Assembly (NCBI RefSeq): GCF_937129525.1
Contig: NZ_CAKZNK010000033.1
Location: 1-47,321 of the forward strand
Direction of reading: 5' to 3'
Source of the DNA: an uncultured Chloroflexus sp.
GTDB taxonomy: Bacteria; Chloroflexota; Chloroflexia; Chloroflexales; Chloroflexaceae
DNA: 47,321 nucleotides
Part shown: piece after piece, positions 737 through 18,786 of the stretch
How the letters are laid out: each line of letters starts with the position of its first letter
Position numbering within the stretch: position 1 is the stretch's first letter
Made by a program: the position numbers and the translations under genes
Notes under the pieces: generated by a model
The model's database searches: none
Told to the model about the DNA's origin: nothing
The model's input: the letters and a program-made list of their open reading frames with translations, nothing else

Positions 737-2497
737 ATGCGAATGAACTGGCTTGTGATCGGATGGCTTGCGCTATCCCTCATTGTGGCACAGGCCGGCA
801 TGGCGCAGGCGCAGACGTCGACATTTGACTGGCGTAGTGATTGGGCCGTTGCCACAGGTTTTACGATTGTCGAAGATACGACAGGTTATCAGTTTCCCAG
901 CGCAATCGCATTTGTTCCCCAGCCCGGCCCTGATCCGAAGGATCCACTCTACTTCGTCACCGAGCTGCGCGGCGCGATCAAAGTGGTGACGAATGATCGC
1001 AGTATCTTCACCTTTGCCGAAAATGTTTTTCAGTTTAAGCCGACAGAAGAACTTCCTTCAGGGCGAGGACAAGGCGGCATGGGTGGTATCTGCCTTGATC
1101 CGGCGAATGGTTACATTTTTGTCACGTTTCTTTACAACGATGCTAATGGGCGGATGCGCAACAATATTGTGCGTTATCAAACAAAGCCTGGCACATTTGC
1201 GCTATCACCCGACAGCTTCGTTGCTTTCACTGAAGTCTTCGCCAGTTATGAATCGGGTCTGGCTCACCATATTGGCGCTTGCCAGGTGGTTGGGAATCAG
1301 CTTTTCGTTGCGATTGGGGAAGCGTGGCAGCCGCATTTGGCGCGCGATCCTGATCAGATGGTCGGCAAAATCTACCGCATGGATCTCGATGGCAAGCCGT
1401 TGTCCGACAATCCGTTTTACGTGGACGACGACGTTACCAAAGCGCGCAATTATGTATGGGCAAGCGGTTTTCGCAATCCGTATGCGCTGCGAGTCGTGAA
1501 CAATCGGGTGTTTGTCGGCGATAATGGGGTCGGTACCGACCGGTTTGTTGAAGTCCAGCGTGGTGAAGACTACGGCTGGAATGGCCAGGAGAACAGTATT
1601 CATCTACGCGCGGCATATGTGTGGGTACCGAGTCTGGCTCCAACAACGTTGCAGTATTTACCCCCAGACAATGCCTTATTAGGCGATTCCAATGCCGGCA
1701 AATTCTTCCTTGGCATGGCCGGTTCGGTGCGGCGCGGCAAAATGCCCGGCATCGTGCGCATCGCCTATGATATGGAACGCAACCAGGTGATGGCAGTGCC
1801 CGACTACTTCTTGCGCTTTCGAGGCACGCAAGAACAGATGGTAGTTGGGTTGGCGTTCGGGCCGGATGGTCTCTATTTTGCGCCGATCTATCCCAATCAG
1901 GCCGGGCAAACATCCGTGTATAAGATTATTCCCGATCCGACCAATAGCTACCCCTACCGTCCCACCCAGGTTGAAGATCCACGTCAGATTATTCGTGAGC
2001 GTGGCTGTTTAGGTTGCCACCAGATCAACGGTGATGGCGGGTTTGGCGGCGCAGCCGGGCCTCCACTCAGTCGTGAATTGCTCATTGCCAACATTCAGGC
2101 GCGCCTGAACAATCAGCAGTATCGTCAACTGCTGGCTGAACTCGATCAACTGGAAGAAGAGCCGTGGGTTTCGACACGATCGGCGCGAGCAGCCGTCCTG
2201 GCGCTGGAAGGCGAAGCGGCCATCCGACAATGGATTATCAACCAGATTGTCGAACCGCGCTGGGATAATCGCGGTTCGCAAATGCCAAATCTTGGCGTGA
2301 GTGAAGCCGAGGCAGCCATCGTAGCCGATTATCTCCTGGCGCCACCGCGCGCGCAGAGCGGGTGGACAGCATACCTCGCTACTGCCCTGCGCTCCCGGCT
2401 GGCATGGCTCGCTTTCGGCGTTGGTGGCGTAGCCGGTGTGGTGATTGCGAGCTTCGGATTTGTCTTATGGTACCGCCGGCGCGTGCCTCGTCTATAA
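737..2497 (+). CDS. Secreted PQQ-type sugar dehydrogenase fused to cytochrome c, C-terminally anchored
   Basis: The 586-residue protein starts with a signal peptide (residues 1-26, ending AQAQ). The ATG at 737 is preceded by AGGAG at 726-730. Residues about 35-410 resemble the glucose/sorbosone dehydrogenase beta-propeller: GQGGMGGICLDP, a GKIYRMDLDG strand after a QMV motif, then DNPF and GFRNPYALR. A class I cytochrome c follows, with C424-L-G-C427-H428 and a probable Met ligand M516 in GSQMPNLG. A hydrophobic helix near residues 558-580 followed by RRR anchors the C-terminus. Members of this family oxidise sugars or related aldehydes with PQQ; here electrons could pass directly to the attached haem and on to the respiratory chain. 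The substrate cannot be told. The aspartate in the usual GD turn after the family's conserved His is Glu here (AIGEA), so PQQ use is likely but not proven. Confidence 0.85.
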   Translation: MRMNWLVIGWLALSLIVAQAGMAQAQTSTFDWRSDWAVATGFTIVEDTTGYQFPSAIAFVPQPGPDPKDPLYFVTELRGAIKVVTNDRSIFTFAENVFQFKPTEELPSGRGQGGMGGICLDPANGYIFVTFLYNDANGRMRNNIVRYQTKPGTFALSPDSFVAFTEVFASYESGLAHHIGACQVVGNQLFVAIGEAWQPHLARDPDQMVGKIYRMDLDGKPLSDNPFYVDDDVTKARNYVWASGFRNPYALRVVNNRVFVGDNGVGTDRFVEVQRGEDYGWNGQENSIHLRAAYVWVPSLAPTTLQYLPPDNALLGDSNAGKFFLGMAGSVRRGKMPGIVRIAYDMERNQVMAVPDYFLRFRGTQEQMVVGLAFGPDGLYFAPIYPNQAGQTSVYKIIPDPTNSYPYRPTQVEDPRQIIRERGCLGCHQINGDGGFGGAAGPPLSRELLIANIQARLNNQQYRQLLAELDQLEEEPWVSTRSARAAVLALEGEAAIRQWIINQIVEPRWDNRGSQMPNLGVSEAEAAIVADYLLAPPRAQSGWTAYLATALRSRLAWLAFGVGGVAGVVIASFGFVLWYRRRVPRL

Positions 2498-2498
2498 T
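2493..2498 (+). promoter_or_regulatory. Possible -10 box before the nucleotide-sugar dehydrogenase
   Basis: A perfect TATAAT overlaps the stop codon of the preceding gene, 46 bases before the next start codon. No convincing -35 box lies 16-18 bases upstream, so this is only a candidate promoter for the polysaccharide genes. Confidence 0.3.
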
Positions 2499-2544
2499 GA
2501 CCACATGCGCTTCATACCGTTGCAAGAGGGAGTATCGTTGCCCT

Positions 2545-3867
<1,323 letters not shown>

Positions 3868-4864: not shown

Positions 4865-7358
<2,494 letters not shown>

Positions 7359-7359
7359 T

Positions 7360-8133
7360 ATGCTGGATGTCTTCCGTAGCGCGCGTCGCACCTTGCGTCA
7401 ATTGATCAGAGGGCCACACGCCGATCTCGGTTTCAAGCCACAGCCCGATTTTTACTATCTGGCTTCGTTTCCAAAATCGGGCAATACATGGGTGCGGTTC
7501 CTGCTGGCAAATCTGCTGGCTGGCGAAGAGTTGACCTTGAAAGGATTCGGTCGTTTCGTGCCCGATAGCCATATTAAGGGTGATCTGGCGTATATGGCCG
7601 ATCCATCCACTCCTTTCAATCAGATGCGACCGCGTTTCGTGAAGACCCATCTTCATTACCGTTCCATCTTTCGCCGGGCGATCTATATCGCGCGCGATGG
7701 GCGCGATGCAATGACCTCGTATTACCACTGGCGCAATAAGCGTTCGGATAAGCCGGTGACGCTCACCGAGATCATCGTTGGTGACATCTACTGGGGGCGC
7801 TGGTCAGATCACGTGTTGGGCTGGCTCAGCAGCGACTGCGAATTGCTGGTCGTGAAATACGAAGACCTCTATGCCGACACTGCGGCGCAAGTGCGGCGGA
7901 TCCTCGCGTTTTGCGGTATGCAGGCGAGTGATGAACAGATTGCCGCAGCCGTGGCAGCTTCGTCGTTCGACCGCATGCGGGCAAAGGAGCGGGCAGCGCA
8001 GGGGGCAGAAACTCCCTTCTTTGTGCGCAAAGGTGGCTCTGGCGACTGGCGCAATCTCTTTTCGCCTGCCGATGAGGAGCTGTTCTGGCAGTATCACCGG
8101 GCCGGTATGCTCGCCGCCGGCTACTGTGAGTGA
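7360..8133 (+). CDS. PAPS-dependent sulfotransferase
   Basis: The 257-residue protein has the classic cytosolic-type sulfotransferase signature. The 5'-phosphosulfate loop SFPKSGNTWVR begins at S36 with K39 as the key lysine. The 3'-phosphate motif is IYIARDGRDAMTSYYHW near residues 108-124, and the C-terminal RKGGSGDWRNLFS matches the family's conserved RKGxxGDWKN-like segment. It should transfer sulfate from PAPS to a hydroxyl or amine, here probably of a polysaccharide intermediate. The start at 7360 overlaps nothing and follows TTTTTGGAGG, one base after the stop of the PAPS synthetase gene, so the two are almost certainly expressed together. The acceptor is unknown. Confidence 0.92.
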   Translation: MLDVFRSARRTLRQLIRGPHADLGFKPQPDFYYLASFPKSGNTWVRFLLANLLAGEELTLKGFGRFVPDSHIKGDLAYMADPSTPFNQMRPRFVKTHLHYRSIFRRAIYIARDGRDAMTSYYHWRNKRSDKPVTLTEIIVGDIYWGRWSDHVLGWLSSDCELLVVKYEDLYADTAAQVRRILAFCGMQASDEQIAAAVAASSFDRMRAKERAAQGAETPFFVRKGGSGDWRNLFSPADEELFWQYHRAGMLAAGYCE

Positions 8134-11363: not shown

Positions 11364-11432
11364 TTTCTGCTCGACCGTTTCGCGGCACTCAATGCGCGTC
11401 TCTTGACGTGATGGCGTTGCCAGGAGGGGATC

Positions 11433-12842
11433 TTGGAACTAAAGAACTATCTGCTCTTTGTCTGGCGGTGGGCATGGCTCATCATTATCTGTGGCTTGAT
11501 TGGCGCCGGAGTAGGTTATGCCTATTCGCAGACCCAACCCCGCTTATATGCGGCTTCAACGATGCTGATGGTGAATCAAGATCAGGGTAATTTTGCCCGA
11601 CCTTCACCAACATTTGACGATCTCCGCGCGCGGGAACGGTATTCCTTAACGGTGCGGCAATTGTTGTTGGTGCGTCCGGTACTTGAGCGTGCCGCCAGCA
11701 TGGTTGAAGGGGTCACTGCTGCACAACTGGCAGTTCGCGCCAGCACCGCCGATGTAGGCAAAACCGAACTGTTCCTGCTGACCGTGCAAGATACTGATCG
11801 ACAACGCGCAGTAGTGTTAGCCGATGCGATTGTCGCTTCATTTCAGGCGCTCGAACGCGATCTACTGGATAATCCCTACGCGCAAGACTCCAGTCTAATC
11901 GTAGTCGATCCGGCGTATGCCAAGCGGAATCCGGTTAGCCCTGATTATGCCCGCAATATTACGCTCAGTGTCTTTATCGCCATCCTGATCGCCCTGACCA
12001 TCGGGTTTCTGTACGACTACTTCAACACGCGCATCGGCGATGAAGGTGATCTGGATCGACGCGGTGGTGGGCGGCCATTGGTGGCAATCGGTAAGTTGAA
12101 AGGAGCATCGCCGGCTGCGCAGCTTGTGACGCTGAACGATCCAACTTCACCTGAAGCTGAAGCCTACCGGATGTTCCGCCTTCATCTTGACGCGCTGGCT
12201 GCCACCTCGCAACTGCAGTTGATTGCCGTGATCAGCGCAGCGGCACGAGAAGGGCGCAGCGTCACCGCCGCCAATCTGTCCGTTGCGCTGGCGCAGACCG
12301 GTCGCCGGGTCATCCTGGTTGATGCCAACCTGCGCAATCCCATTTTGCATACCTTTTTCAATCTACCCAATCAGGGCGGCCTCTCCAATCTGCTTAGCGG
12401 CACTGCGCAGGTGATCGAGCCGTTTCTGCGTGTGACCACTCAACCCGGCCTTTACCTCTTGACAGCAGGGAATGTAGCCGGTCTCCCATCCCAGCTTCTC
12501 GGCGGGTCAAACCTGGAAAAGGTGCTGACATCGTTGCGTCAGTATGCTGAAATCATCATCATCGACAGCGCGCCGTTGTTAAGTTTTGCCGATACAACTC
12601 TGCTGCTACGCGCGGTAGATACAACTCTGGCAGTAGTGCGATCCGGTCAAACCACCGAGAGCGAATTGCGTCAAATGATCGATCTGCTACGTCAGACTGA
12701 TATTCCGTGTATGGGCATTGCATTCAACGGTGTGAAGCGTCGGTGGCGCCGGTTTCCTCTCCTCGCGCCACAACGTTCACGACTGTCCACGCAGGCGCCG
12801 GTGGCGAATCGGAGTGAAATCGTCGGTGAAGTGGGAGATTGA
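11433..12842 (+). CDS. Wzz chain-length domain fused to a degenerate tyrosine-kinase-like ATPase domain
   Basis: A 469-residue protein. Residues 1-200 form a Wzz domain with two transmembrane helices, near 13-33 and 178-198. Residues about 230-440 resemble bacterial tyrosine kinases (CpsD/Wzc C-terminal domain). The start is TTG at 11433, right after CAGGAGGGG. In active kinases the Walker A reads GEGKST; here it is R272-E-G-R275-S-V277. The Walker A' reads D297-A-N299 instead of DAD, and Walker B keeps D378 in IIIIDSAP. No tyrosine-rich tail is present; the tail is Arg/Ser-rich. The protein probably still controls polymer chain length with the polymerase encoded at 17431, but catalysis by the ATPase domain is doubtful. 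Its stop is four bases before the next start. Confidence 0.85.
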   Translation: MELKNYLLFVWRWAWLIIICGLIGAGVGYAYSQTQPRLYAASTMLMVNQDQGNFARPSPTFDDLRARERYSLTVRQLLLVRPVLERAASMVEGVTAAQLAVRASTADVGKTELFLLTVQDTDRQRAVVLADAIVASFQALERDLLDNPYAQDSSLIVVDPAYAKRNPVSPDYARNITLSVFIAILIALTIGFLYDYFNTRIGDEGDLDRRGGGRPLVAIGKLKGASPAAQLVTLNDPTSPEAEAYRMFRLHLDALAATSQLQLIAVISAAAREGRSVTAANLSVALAQTGRRVILVDANLRNPILHTFFNLPNQGGLSNLLSGTAQVIEPFLRVTTQPGLYLLTAGNVAGLPSQLLGGSNLEKVLTSLRQYAEIIIIDSAPLLSFADTTLLLRAVDTTLAVVRSGQTTESELRQMIDLLRQTDIPCMGIAFNGVKRRWRRFPLLAPQRSRLSTQAPVANRSEIVGEVGD

Positions 12843-12846
12843 AGCT

Positions 12847-14370
12847 ATGCGACGTTACTGGTTAGCGCTCGTCGTTGTGATTTCCCTGCTGCTGACTGCG
12901 TGCAGCCAGCAAGCTGATCCCGAACCGAATCGCTCGCCCACAACGGCGCCGGCAGCAGCGCCCACGACAGCGCCGGCAGCAGCGCCCACGACAGCGCCGG
13001 CAATCGTAAACGGTACGCTCATTGCCAGTGGTCGTGTCCAACCGGTTACGGTGCTCGATCTAAGCTTCGTGAACGCCGGTTCAGTGGCTGAGGTGTTGGC
13101 GCAACCAGGCGATCGCGTGCGCGCCGGCGATATAATTGCCAGTCTCGACATTCGCGCCCTCGATCTGGCGGTAGCGGAAGCGCGAGTAGCTCTGGCAGAG
13201 GCGCGGGCCAACTATGAATTATTGCAAAGTGGCGCCACGCCCGAACAGATCGAGCAGGCCGAAGCCGAGATTGCCCGCGCGCGCGCGCGACTGGCCGATG
13301 GCCGCACTAATGTCACCCAGAGCGACATAGCGGCTGCTCAGGCCGAGTTGCGCGAGGCTCGCGCAGTACTCGAGCGCATACAAAAGGGGATCACACCTGA
13401 GGACCGCGCCCGCCTGGAGGCGTCAGTAGCCGAAGCGCGCGCCCGATTGCAGACCCGAATTAACAACCTGGCTGGCGAAAAGACCCAGCTCGAATCGCAG
13501 ATCGAGCGGTTGGCAAATGAGCTGCGCAATGCTCAGGATGATTACTCACGCGTCGCGTGGATGAATCAGCAGATCGTGGCCGGGGGTGGTCAATTGACCC
13601 AGGCTCAAATCGATAACGAAACGCGGTTGTTGCGCGCAGTAGAGAATGCTGAACGACGTTTGCAAGAGGCTCGCGTGGCGCTCGAGACGGTGCGTCAGAA
13701 TGAGTTCAGCGAGATTGCTGCCTACCGCGCCGAGGTTGATCAGGCTGAAGCTTTACTGGCCGAAGCCTTGCGTCCGCCGACGCCCGATCAGATTGCTGCG
13801 GCTGAGAAGCGAATTTTGCAGGCGGAAGCGCGATTAGCGCAATTGACGGTCAATCATCCCAATGAAGTAGCCGTCTACGAGGCCGAGTTGCGCAAGGCCG
13901 AAGCCGATCTGGCTCGCCTGACTGCGCCGCCGCTCAGTGCGCAGATTGCCCTCGCTCAAGCCCGGATCGAGCGCGCCGAGATTGAGTTGCGGAAGGTCGA
14001 GTTGAATCGCGAACGCTACCAGATTCGCGCGCCGATTGATGCCACAGTGGTGAGTGTCGTTGTGCAACCGGGTCAGACGGTTGATGCTAGCCAGCGCGTA
14101 CTCACTATCGCTACGCTTGACCAATGGCAGATTGTGGTACCTGAACTCAGTGAAATTCACGTCAGCCTGATCAAAGAAAACGATCCGGTGACGATCAGTT
14201 TCATTGCCTTGCCTGATGTGCGTCTCAGCGGCAGAGTGCGCTATATCGAACCAATTGGTCAGGAGACAGGGATCGGCACAACGTACACCGTGCGGATTGA
14301 GCCTGATAGTTGGGATCCACGACTGCGCTGGAACATGAATGCTCAGGTCGTCTTCTCGGCCAGCAATTAA
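12847..14370 (+). CDS. HlyD-like periplasmic adaptor lipoprotein
   Basis: The 507-residue protein has a lipoprotein signal peptide with lipobox LLTAC (C about residue 18), then a Thr/Ala/Pro linker made of a direct repeat. A biotinyl-lipoyl-like half follows (VNAGSVAEVLAQPGDRVRAGDIIASLD), then about 280 residues of Ala/Glu/Arg-rich coiled coil with several hairpins. The second half of the lipoyl domain (YQIRAPIDATVVSVVVQPGQTV) and a beta-barrel near 430-505 complete the HlyD pattern. Such adaptors bridge an inner-membrane pump to outer parts of the envelope. No pump or outer-membrane channel is encoded nearby, so a role in polymer export is only suggested by location. ATG 12847 follows GGGAG. 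Confidence 0.85.
   Translation: MRRYWLALVVVISLLLTACSQQADPEPNRSPTTAPAAAPTTAPAAAPTTAPAIVNGTLIASGRVQPVTVLDLSFVNAGSVAEVLAQPGDRVRAGDIIASLDIRALDLAVAEARVALAEARANYELLQSGATPEQIEQAEAEIARARARLADGRTNVTQSDIAAAQAELREARAVLERIQKGITPEDRARLEASVAEARARLQTRINNLAGEKTQLESQIERLANELRNAQDDYSRVAWMNQQIVAGGGQLTQAQIDNETRLLRAVENAERRLQEARVALETVRQNEFSEIAAYRAEVDQAEALLAEALRPPTPDQIAAAEKRILQAEARLAQLTVNHPNEVAVYEAELRKAEADLARLTAPPLSAQIALAQARIERAEIELRKVELNRERYQIRAPIDATVVSVVVQPGQTVDASQRVLTIATLDQWQIVVPELSEIHVSLIKENDPVTISFIALPDVRLSGRVRYIEPIGQETGIGTTYTVRIEPDSWDPRLRWNMNAQVVFSASN
12943..13002 (+). repeat. 24-base tandem repeat in the linker of the HlyD-like lipoprotein
   Basis: Two and a half copies of a 24-base unit (12943-12966, 12967-12990, partial 12991-13002) encode the repeated linker TAPAAAPT. 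The unit length is a multiple of three, so copy-number change would lengthen or shorten the linker without a frameshift. Confidence 0.85.
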
Positions 14371-17430: not shown

Positions 17431-18786
17431 ATGATTGTTACCGGCCCAATCATTCTGAACCCACTTGAGCTGGCATTGCTGGGCCTGATCGGCCTGTATG
17501 CAGTATGGCGCGGACGGCCTGAGATTGTGTTGGCGATCTACTTGTCGGTTTCGCTCTGGACGCGCACTGTGTTCGTGGGGCCGCTCGCTGCGACCTGGCC
17601 GTTGCTGGCAACCATCGTGCTGGCGCTAATCCGCTATCTGCACGTTGCGCGACCCTGGTCGTTATTACCCAACCGGCTCGATCTGACGACCCGTCAGATC
17701 TTCCCAACCGGTGATACGTGGATCGTACCCTGGATGGGTTTGTGGTGGGCCTGGGCGCTCTGTGTGCTTCTCCAGTTCGATCTGCGCGACAAGATGTCGA
17801 TCCTGCGCCCGGTGATCCTCTACATTATCGTTGGTTCCCTGGTCGCTTTGATGACAATCCGCGATGCCAGCGCTGCCCGTCGGTTTGCAATCGCCTATCT
17901 TCTAACCAGCGCATATGGTCTCTATGCGGCGCTGCGCTTCATCGAGGTTCCACTAAGCTACCTGTTGAGCGATCCCGGTCTCTCGTCGCTGCCCTACCGA
18001 AACCTTGGCATTCGCGAATACAACTACTTCTCCCACCACCTCAGCATCGCTTTCGTGCTTGGACTTGGCTTATTTCTGCAGGCTCGTCATCTATGGTCGA
18101 TGATGTTGTTTGCGGCAGTTGCCTTCTGGTGTGGCTATGGCGTCTTCCTCACCGGGGCACGTCAGTCACTGAGTGGCGCAGGGGTAGCGGCTGCTCTCAT
18201 CTTTGTCTGGGCGCTCAGCCGGCAGGGAAGCAAGCCCTGGCGGGTACCGCTGATAATAGCCGCTATCGTGATGGCAGTGGTACTGATTTATCAAGTTGCT
18301 CCACATCTCGTAGTGCGCGAAGGCGAGAGTGGTCTGGAAGAGTCCTTCAACATCTTCGAGGATCGTGGCGGCTTGTGGGAAATCGGCTGGAATTACTTCC
18401 TGGCATCGCCAGTATGGGGTTGGGGTTTCGAGCAGAAGCTCTGGTCGCATAACCTGTTTATCGGTACGCTGGCCGATCAGGGTCTGGTTGGCATGGTGTT
18501 CTTCCTGGGCTATCTGATCTGGGCGCTGCGTCGATTGCCGGTGGTCTGGGCGCAAACCCCCGATGATGACCGCGCTGTCTGGCGGATCGTCTTCTTCGCC
18601 ATCTTCGTATTTGCCCTGGTGCATGGACAGGCTTCAGGGAATACGATGATCACGGCTCATCTGCACTGGTCGCTGTGGGCAGTCTGGGCGTTGGGTAGTG
18701 GTGTGGTGGTAGAGACGATGCCGAAGCCATTACCGATGCCGCCGCGCGCGCGTTTGCGACCGGCGCAGGCAGGAGGCACGGTATGA
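17431..18786 (+). CDS. Wzy/WaaL-like O-antigen polymerase or ligase (multi-pass membrane protein)
   Basis: A 451-residue protein with about ten to twelve hydrophobic segments. The family-typical large extracytoplasmic loop sits near residues 270-350 and includes GWNYFLASPVWGWGFEQKLW followed by SHNLFIGTLADQGLVG, the pattern of the Wzy_C/O-antigen ligase domain. It should join lipid-linked repeat units into chains or transfer them to an acceptor at the outer face of the membrane. It is the only polymerase candidate in the locus and pairs logically with the Wzz-like protein at 11433. The stop overlaps the start of the next gene by four bases (ATGA), so the two are translationally coupled. Confidence 0.8.
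   Translation: MIVTGPIILNPLELALLGLIGLYAVWRGRPEIVLAIYLSVSLWTRTVFVGPLAATWPLLATIVLALIRYLHVARPWSLLPNRLDLTTRQIFPTGDTWIVPWMGLWWAWALCVLLQFDLRDKMSILRPVILYIIVGSLVALMTIRDASAARRFAIAYLLTSAYGLYAALRFIEVPLSYLLSDPGLSSLPYRNLGIREYNYFSHHLSIAFVLGLGLFLQARHLWSMMLFAAVAFWCGYGVFLTGARQSLSGAGVAAALIFVWALSRQGSKPWRVPLIIAAIVMAVVLIYQVAPHLVVREGESGLEESFNIFEDRGGLWEIGWNYFLASPVWGWGFEQKLWSHNLFIGTLADQGLVGMVFFLGYLIWALRRLPVVWAQTPDDDRAVWRIVFFAIFVFALVHGQASGNTMITAHLHWSLWAVWALGSGVVVETMPKPLPMPPRARLRPAQAGGTV

Follow-up and report, generated by a model that had tools for sequence, protein, structure and literature searches.

Is phosphorylation by a BY-kinase essential to a polysaccharide co-polymerase, or is it a layer of control added onto a ring that is sufficient by itself? 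This unsettled question is raised by the gene at positions 11433-12842 of the window, a 47,321-nt stretch of DNA from an uncultured Chloroflexus sp., whose genome has Chloroflexus islandicus and several Chloroflexus MAGs among its close relatives. The product, hereafter WzzK, was described in a first-pass annotation as a fusion of Wzz and a kinase with a broken Walker A motif and no tyrosine tail, which might set chain length through its shape and not through phosphorylation.

Gene and domain architecture of WzzK

The gene is a real ORF on the forward strand (as are its ribosome-binding site, its parts and the hlyD and wzy genes described below) coding for a protein of 469 aa. Its TTG start codon lies 5 nt downstream of an AGGAGG ribosome-binding site (11422-11427), read directly from the DNA, and the start is kept throughout the genus as LEL[KR]. 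The protein matches the Pfam profile Wzz (PF02706, E-value 2e-10, residues 2-88) and, in its C-terminal part, AAA_31 (PF13614), scores 127 bits with TIGR01007, "polysaccharide biosynthesis tyrosine autokinase", against a cut-off of 108, and gives a weak match to NF047398 (NCBIfam), the KGGVGR variant.

The AlphaFold2 model has a mean pLDDT of 82.5, with values above 90 in the P-loop region and below 50 for residues 438-469. It includes two transmembrane helices, at about residues 14-34 (11472-11534), where hydrophobicity agrees with the model, and 172-197 (11946-12023), a short extracytoplasmic Wzz domain between them (about residues 35-171, 11535-11945) and a BY-kinase-like domain (residues 198-436, 12024-12740). 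The closest structures are CapAB (3bfv; VIA-align, Z 35.2, rmsd 1.9, 236 residues) and the chains of the full-length Wzc K540M octamer (Z 31-32 over about 400-420 residues). WzzK is a PCP-2a protein, namely a Wzc-like fused co-polymerase with the Wzz domain between two transmembrane helices and a BY-kinase fold.

Catalytic motifs and C-terminal tail

The P-loop reads A-R-E-G-R-S-V (residues 271-277), the degenerate Walker A motif being A-R-E-G-R-S (residues 271-276, 12243-12260), with GRS in place of GK[ST]. Arg275 (codon 12255-12257) aligns with the catalytic Lys of CapB and BceF, so the departure from Walker A reported in the first-pass annotation is genuine at this residue. The annotation had also counted the first Arg of R-E-G-R-S-V, Arg272, as part of the lesion, which was rejected: 48 intact relatives have D, G, N, E, S, L or Q at that position, and REGKS with the Lys present occurs in one relative (L120). 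The consensus G-E-G-K-S-T implied there thus overstates the change, and only Lys to Arg counts in Walker A. A literature search yielded no usable account of Walker A motifs with Arg in place of Lys.

The A′ motif is V-D-A-N-L-R (D-A-N-L-R, residues 297-301, 12321-12335), in which the second Asp of DxD is replaced by Asn299, as had been claimed. Asn is found here in 3/64 relatives retaining the Walker A Lys, and further cases occur; the A′ Asn is thus uncommon but not diagnostic in these relatives, and weaker evidence when taken alone. The Walker B motif, I-I-D-S-A-P (residues 376-381, 12558-12575), was correctly said to keep its Asp (Asp378). The motif ExxRxxR, known as the octamer-interface motif of BY-kinases (PMC3795738), is present as EAYRMFR (residues 243-249, 12159-12179).

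The absence of a tyrosine tail was also borne out, the last Tyr of the protein being Tyr371 within the kinase-like domain. The tail (residues 437-469, 12741-12839) is basic and fast-evolving. At the end of this otherwise freely evolving segment a C-terminal peptide, NRSE[TI].G[DE].GD, is conserved among the orthologues. It was considered as a candidate for a new functional tail; the 3′ end of the gene, GGAGAT-TGA, coincides with the ribosome-binding site that serves the gene downstream, which accounts for the last codons, although not for NRSE.

Origin of the changes and selection on the domain

The set of WzzK orthologues comprises seven Chloroflexus proteins, the copy of an eighth genome being cut by the end of a contig. 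An alignment with relatives, proposed earlier as a check, demonstrates that the loss is common to the genus: EGRS is present in 7/7 orthologues, the A′ motif is DAN in six and DAH in one, and none has a Tyr in the tail. The P-loop EGRSxTAANL (except x), Asp297, Arg301 and Asp378 are invariant in 7/7, and so are E243, R246 and R249 of the interface motif. Since the combination is repeated in all seven orthologues, one of them with His for Asn, it is, as judged from the alignment, not a matter of chance. As WzzK retains Asp378 and, apart from the changed position, the P-loop with Gly274 and Ser276, it may still bind nucleotide.

In the tree of kinase domains, Chloroflexus WzzK forms one clade (100/100) inside a Tyr-tailed fused family (99/99), whose other members mostly have GKS/T, DxD and 2-9 tail Tyr. 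The sister of this clade is the copy of genome G013, with moderate support (90/74 in the tree with the window protein and 97/81 in the tree without it). That copy is intermediate, possessing Arg in TREGRT together with DTD and three tail Tyr (KYYSNLY), and the copy in the sister genus (G008) is intact, with PGEGKS, D-M-D and a YYY tail. Given the intact state of the same locus in the sister genus and the intermediate in G013, the condition of WzzK is, on the tree and alignment, a secondary loss from an intact Tyr-tailed ancestor. The combination in G013 of Arg with DTD and a Tyr tail suggests that Lys was probably replaced by Arg before the A′ and Tyr losses took place.

The Wzz part has a median dN/dS of 0.05, the kinase-like domain one of about 0.09 and the tail one of 0.53; these values are rough, as pS is near saturation. 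Conservation in the P-loop and A′ blocks equals or exceeds that of the domain as a whole (0.59 and 0.67, respectively, versus an average of 0.50). The kinase-like domain is under purifying selection and is maintained rather than decaying. In one MAG (G001, L015/L041) the orthologue has a frameshift near residue 35, possibly an assembly error.

Other BY-kinase-like proteins

Besides WzzK, the only protein above the TIGR01007 cut-off in each Chloroflexus genome is a stand-alone CpsD (L044:5995-6636 in G000, and L045-L051). Chloroflexus CpsD has the P-loop TPEKS, in which Gly is replaced by Glu and Lys is retained, as well as D-C-D and Walker B, and in 8/8 genomes it ends just past the domain with GVVLSGART or a similar sequence, where relatives end with GYGYYG; both the Tyr tail and the P-loop Gly are gone. 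In CpsD of other genera (L097, L098, L101, L031, L032) the P-loop Gly is replaced by Asp or Asn (DEDKS, DENKS) while the Tyr tail is intact, and these sequences suggest that the Gly is dispensable.

The search for a separate kinase that could rescue activity, also proposed earlier, was performed with an intact BY-kinase defined by the Lys, DxD, the Walker B Asp and two or more tail Tyr. None of the eight Chloroflexus genomes searched yielded such a kinase, and all 29 other genomes with hits possess at least one; completeness is 71-86% in the four relatives that gave no hit. The CpsB/CapC profile (PF19567) likewise found nothing in the eight Chloroflexus genomes, nor is the gene at its place by cpsD, where G008 has the order wzz-wzz-cpsD-cpsB and the window's genome and G003 have a response regulator after cpsD. 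Among the other members of the family PF19567 was found in 12/17, and it adjoins cpsD in 11 of these 12. As Chloroflexus is one lineage and represents one evolutionary event, the accompanying loss of cpsB counts as one coincidence and not as a statistical association. Besides, some relatives with a Tyr-tailed CpsD (e.g., G025 and G012) are also without CpsB, so the absence of cpsB alone is not proof of kinase loss. Low-molecular-weight phosphotyrosine phosphatases (PF01451) are uninformative as a test, every genome having at least one.

It is conceivable, at a little under an even chance, that Chloroflexus has dismantled its BY-kinase phosphotyrosine control, having lost two Tyr tails and cpsB, and has kept the domains as parts of a structural, possibly nucleotide-switched PCP ring, which would be a transition from PCP-2 to a PCP-1-like state. 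No paper on exopolysaccharide and tyrosine kinase in Chloroflexus turned up in a literature search.

Several further degenerate proteins were encountered. An independent clade of fused pseudokinases in the bacterial family f4 (L024, L077, L123, L131) has P-loop and Walker B fully eroded (PLEDART/PLADTHV, Walker B lost), in contrast to the conserved P-loop of WzzK, and the sampled genomes of this family retain other intact BY-kinases. A separate deep clade (L053-L062, L113, L114) consists of long Wzz-kinase-like proteins of about 570-710 aa without a Tyr tail, the members seen having Arg at the Walker A Lys. Chloroflexus itself has a third, long Wzz-kinase-like protein, more degenerate than WzzK and CpsD. 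The possibility that these long co-polymerases (L053-L060), also with Arg, reflect the same event as WzzK was rejected, as they belong to the separate deep clade and have no ExxRxxR.

The polysaccharide cluster

The gene following wzzK (12847-14370) codes for an HlyD-type (HlyD/MacA-like) membrane-fusion lipoprotein with the lipobox LTAC, assigned by domain search and synteny. It adjoins wzzK in most relatives with a readable neighbour but not in the species of G001/L041, and the order GT4-wzzK-hlyD is common to the window, G013 and G019, with wzzK-hlyD also in G008. Its gene is tightly coupled to wzzK and keeps this position in sister genera; the lipoprotein could be an export partner. A Wzy-type polymerase with a Wzy_C domain (17431-18786, assigned by domain and synteny) lies within the conserved cluster of WzzK and is the likely partner whose activity WzzK sets. 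The same cluster contains a UDP-sugar dehydrogenase gene, UGD (2362-3867).

At 5613-8133 a fused ATP sulfurylase/APS kinase, recognized by its motifs, adjoins a sulfotransferase (PF00685). Both sulfation genes are kept in the relatives L039 and L040, and the first of them in L041. The presence of this pair in the cluster indicates that its polymer is probably sulfated.

Proposed mechanism and alternative explanations

Of the readings considered, the one put forward in the first-pass annotation, that WzzK is a pseudokinase, is best supported by the derived genus-wide loss, the purifying selection, the retained interface and the disappearance of the cognate PHP phosphatase gene. We consider it probable that WzzK is a PCP-2a-type co-polymerase in which the BY-kinase domain has become a pseudokinase acting as a passive scaffold and whose ring sets chain length without cycles of phosphorylation. 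The sequences show that in the ancestor shared by all Chloroflexus Arg already stood for the Walker A Lys and Asn (His in one species) for the second A′ Asp, and that the Tyr cluster was gone, while purifying selection preserved the fold, ExxRxxR and the Walker B Asp. For WzzK itself we infer octamer formation, partnership with Wzy, absence of catalysis and control of chain length. The protein would still form an octamer encircling the Wzy polymerase, perhaps with ADP or ATP bound, and, as its tail could not be phosphorylated, this ring would not be taken apart by such cycles. Chain length would then follow from the geometry and stability of the ring, as in Wzz (PCP-1), or from assembly driven by nucleotide or a partner; control through the shape of WzzK is plausible by analogy. 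Canonical BY-kinase signalling, to judge from the tailless CpsD and the deleted cpsB, may have been lost from the genus along with this change.

There are precedents for several of these steps. CapA1B2 K55M crystallises as an ADP-Mg octamer (PMC3795738), and Wzc K540M was also observed as an octamer, disassembly of the Wzc octamer being driven by tail phosphorylation and octamer stability being thought to set Wzy activity (PMC11986026). A phosphorylation-independent scaffold was proposed for the stand-alone pseudokinases EcpK and HfsB, with fused examples cited (PMC12004946).

Some observations speak against a pseudokinase. The change of Lys to Arg is conservative, and G013 has Arg together with tail Tyr, so Arg alone may not abolish activity, while a residual NTPase would be consistent with the conserved Walker B Asp and the conserved P-loop around Arg275. 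In E. coli K30, kinase-dead Wzc fails to support a normal capsule, so a static ring is no general substitute.

The alternative that refines the pseudokinase reading, and overlaps with it in confidence, is that WzzK is an NTPase or nucleotide switch, with Arg275 standing in for Lys and with ATP binding or slow hydrolysis driving assembly and disassembly of the ring without phosphotyrosine. We regard it tentatively as possible: EGRSxTAANL, Asp297, Arg301 and Asp378 do not vary apart from x, the P-loop and A′ are conserved at or above the domain average, the truly abandoned sites of the f4 clade look different, and the weak match to NF047398 shows that Arg-bearing P-loops are catalogued in the superfamily; however, the second A′ Asp is gone, and the conservation of the motifs may be purely structural. 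A further alternative is that wzzK is a decaying remnant becoming a pseudogene. The lost catalytic residues and the G001 frameshift could be cited in its favour, but the frameshift occurs in a single MAG and may be an assembly error, the remaining frame is open in 7/7 orthologues, and the start codon, the ribosome-binding site and the entire cluster are conserved. Decay is thus extremely improbable, and was rejected given the dN/dS of about 0.09 in the kinase-like domain and the conserved synteny.

Two further explanations preserve a role for phosphorylation. Another kinase, e.g., the stand-alone CpsD, might phosphorylate WzzK or drive it in trans, with WzzK as its substrate or partner. Chloroflexus CpsD retains Lys, D-C-D and Walker B, and its Gly-to-Glu change need not be fatal, as relatives with DEDKS or DENKS keep their Tyr tails; nevertheless, WzzK offers no tail Tyr to phosphorylate, CpsD is without its own tail in 8/8 genomes and cpsB is absent, which makes this unlikely. 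WzzK could also be an active BY-kinase acting on other proteins despite its own missing tail, for instance on the UDP-sugar dehydrogenase, whose gene lies in the cluster. Tyrosine phosphorylation of E. coli Ugd by a BY-kinase is described (PMC2516531), and G013 unites Arg with tail Tyr, but the Chloroflexus protein has lost the Walker A Lys as well as the second A′ Asp and there is no CpsB-type phosphatase partner, so we consider such activity quite unlikely.

Comparison with known systems

BY pseudokinase co-polymerases are already known in other bacteria, and WzzK is of this known kind. EcpK/EpsV from Myxococcus xanthus and HfsB/HfsA from Caulobacter belong to Wzx/Wzy-type pathways and, like WzzK, have the BY-kinase fold without the full catalytic motif set or tail Tyr, a scaffold role having been proposed for them (PMC12004946). 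Compared by the same features, WzzK has the fold, no tail, altered Walker A and A′ motifs, and a retained Walker B and part of the P-loop. EcpK and HfsB are stand-alone proteins with a separate PCP, whereas in WzzK both parts are fused in one polypeptide; EcpK has lost all the motifs, whereas in WzzK Walker B and the greater part of the P-loop persist; and, unlike either, WzzK comes from a genus in which all the BY-kinase-like proteins found are degenerate. The fused PCP-2 pseudokinases of Cuthbertson et al., as cited in PMC12004946 (e.g., Sinorhizobium meliloti SMc01795 and Vibrio vulnificus VV1_2305), also unite PCP and pseudokinase in one chain, but they are proteobacterial, and are likened to WzzK here by architecture.

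The best structural match is CapA/CapB from Staphylococcus aureus (3bfv, 2ved, 4jlv), a pair of a short-domain CpsC-type protein and a kinase, of which CapB1 was reported to be inactive in vitro. CapB keeps Lys55, DxD and the Tyr cluster, in a system of two separate proteins, and WzzK does not. Wzc from E. coli (7nhr, 9exo) resembles WzzK in its two transmembrane helices, extracytoplasmic Wzz part and fused kinase, and its K540M variant is a stable octamer; unlike WzzK, it has a much larger periplasmic domain, the catalytic Lys and a Tyr tail, and works with Wza in the outer membrane. The orthologue in the sister genus g2 (L019, G008) shares the architecture and the WzzK-HlyD neighbourhood but retains PGEGKS, D-M-D and the YYY tail, with cpsB in the same genome.

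To these systems WzzK adds a fused example that spans a whole genus, in which the CpsD tail and the phosphatase were lost in parallel. The series, intact in sister genera, broken in all Chloroflexus and with an Arg-bearing, Tyr-tailed intermediate, constitutes a natural experiment on the role of phosphorylation, and it equally suits the question of whether "dead" BY-kinase domains still bind nucleotide.
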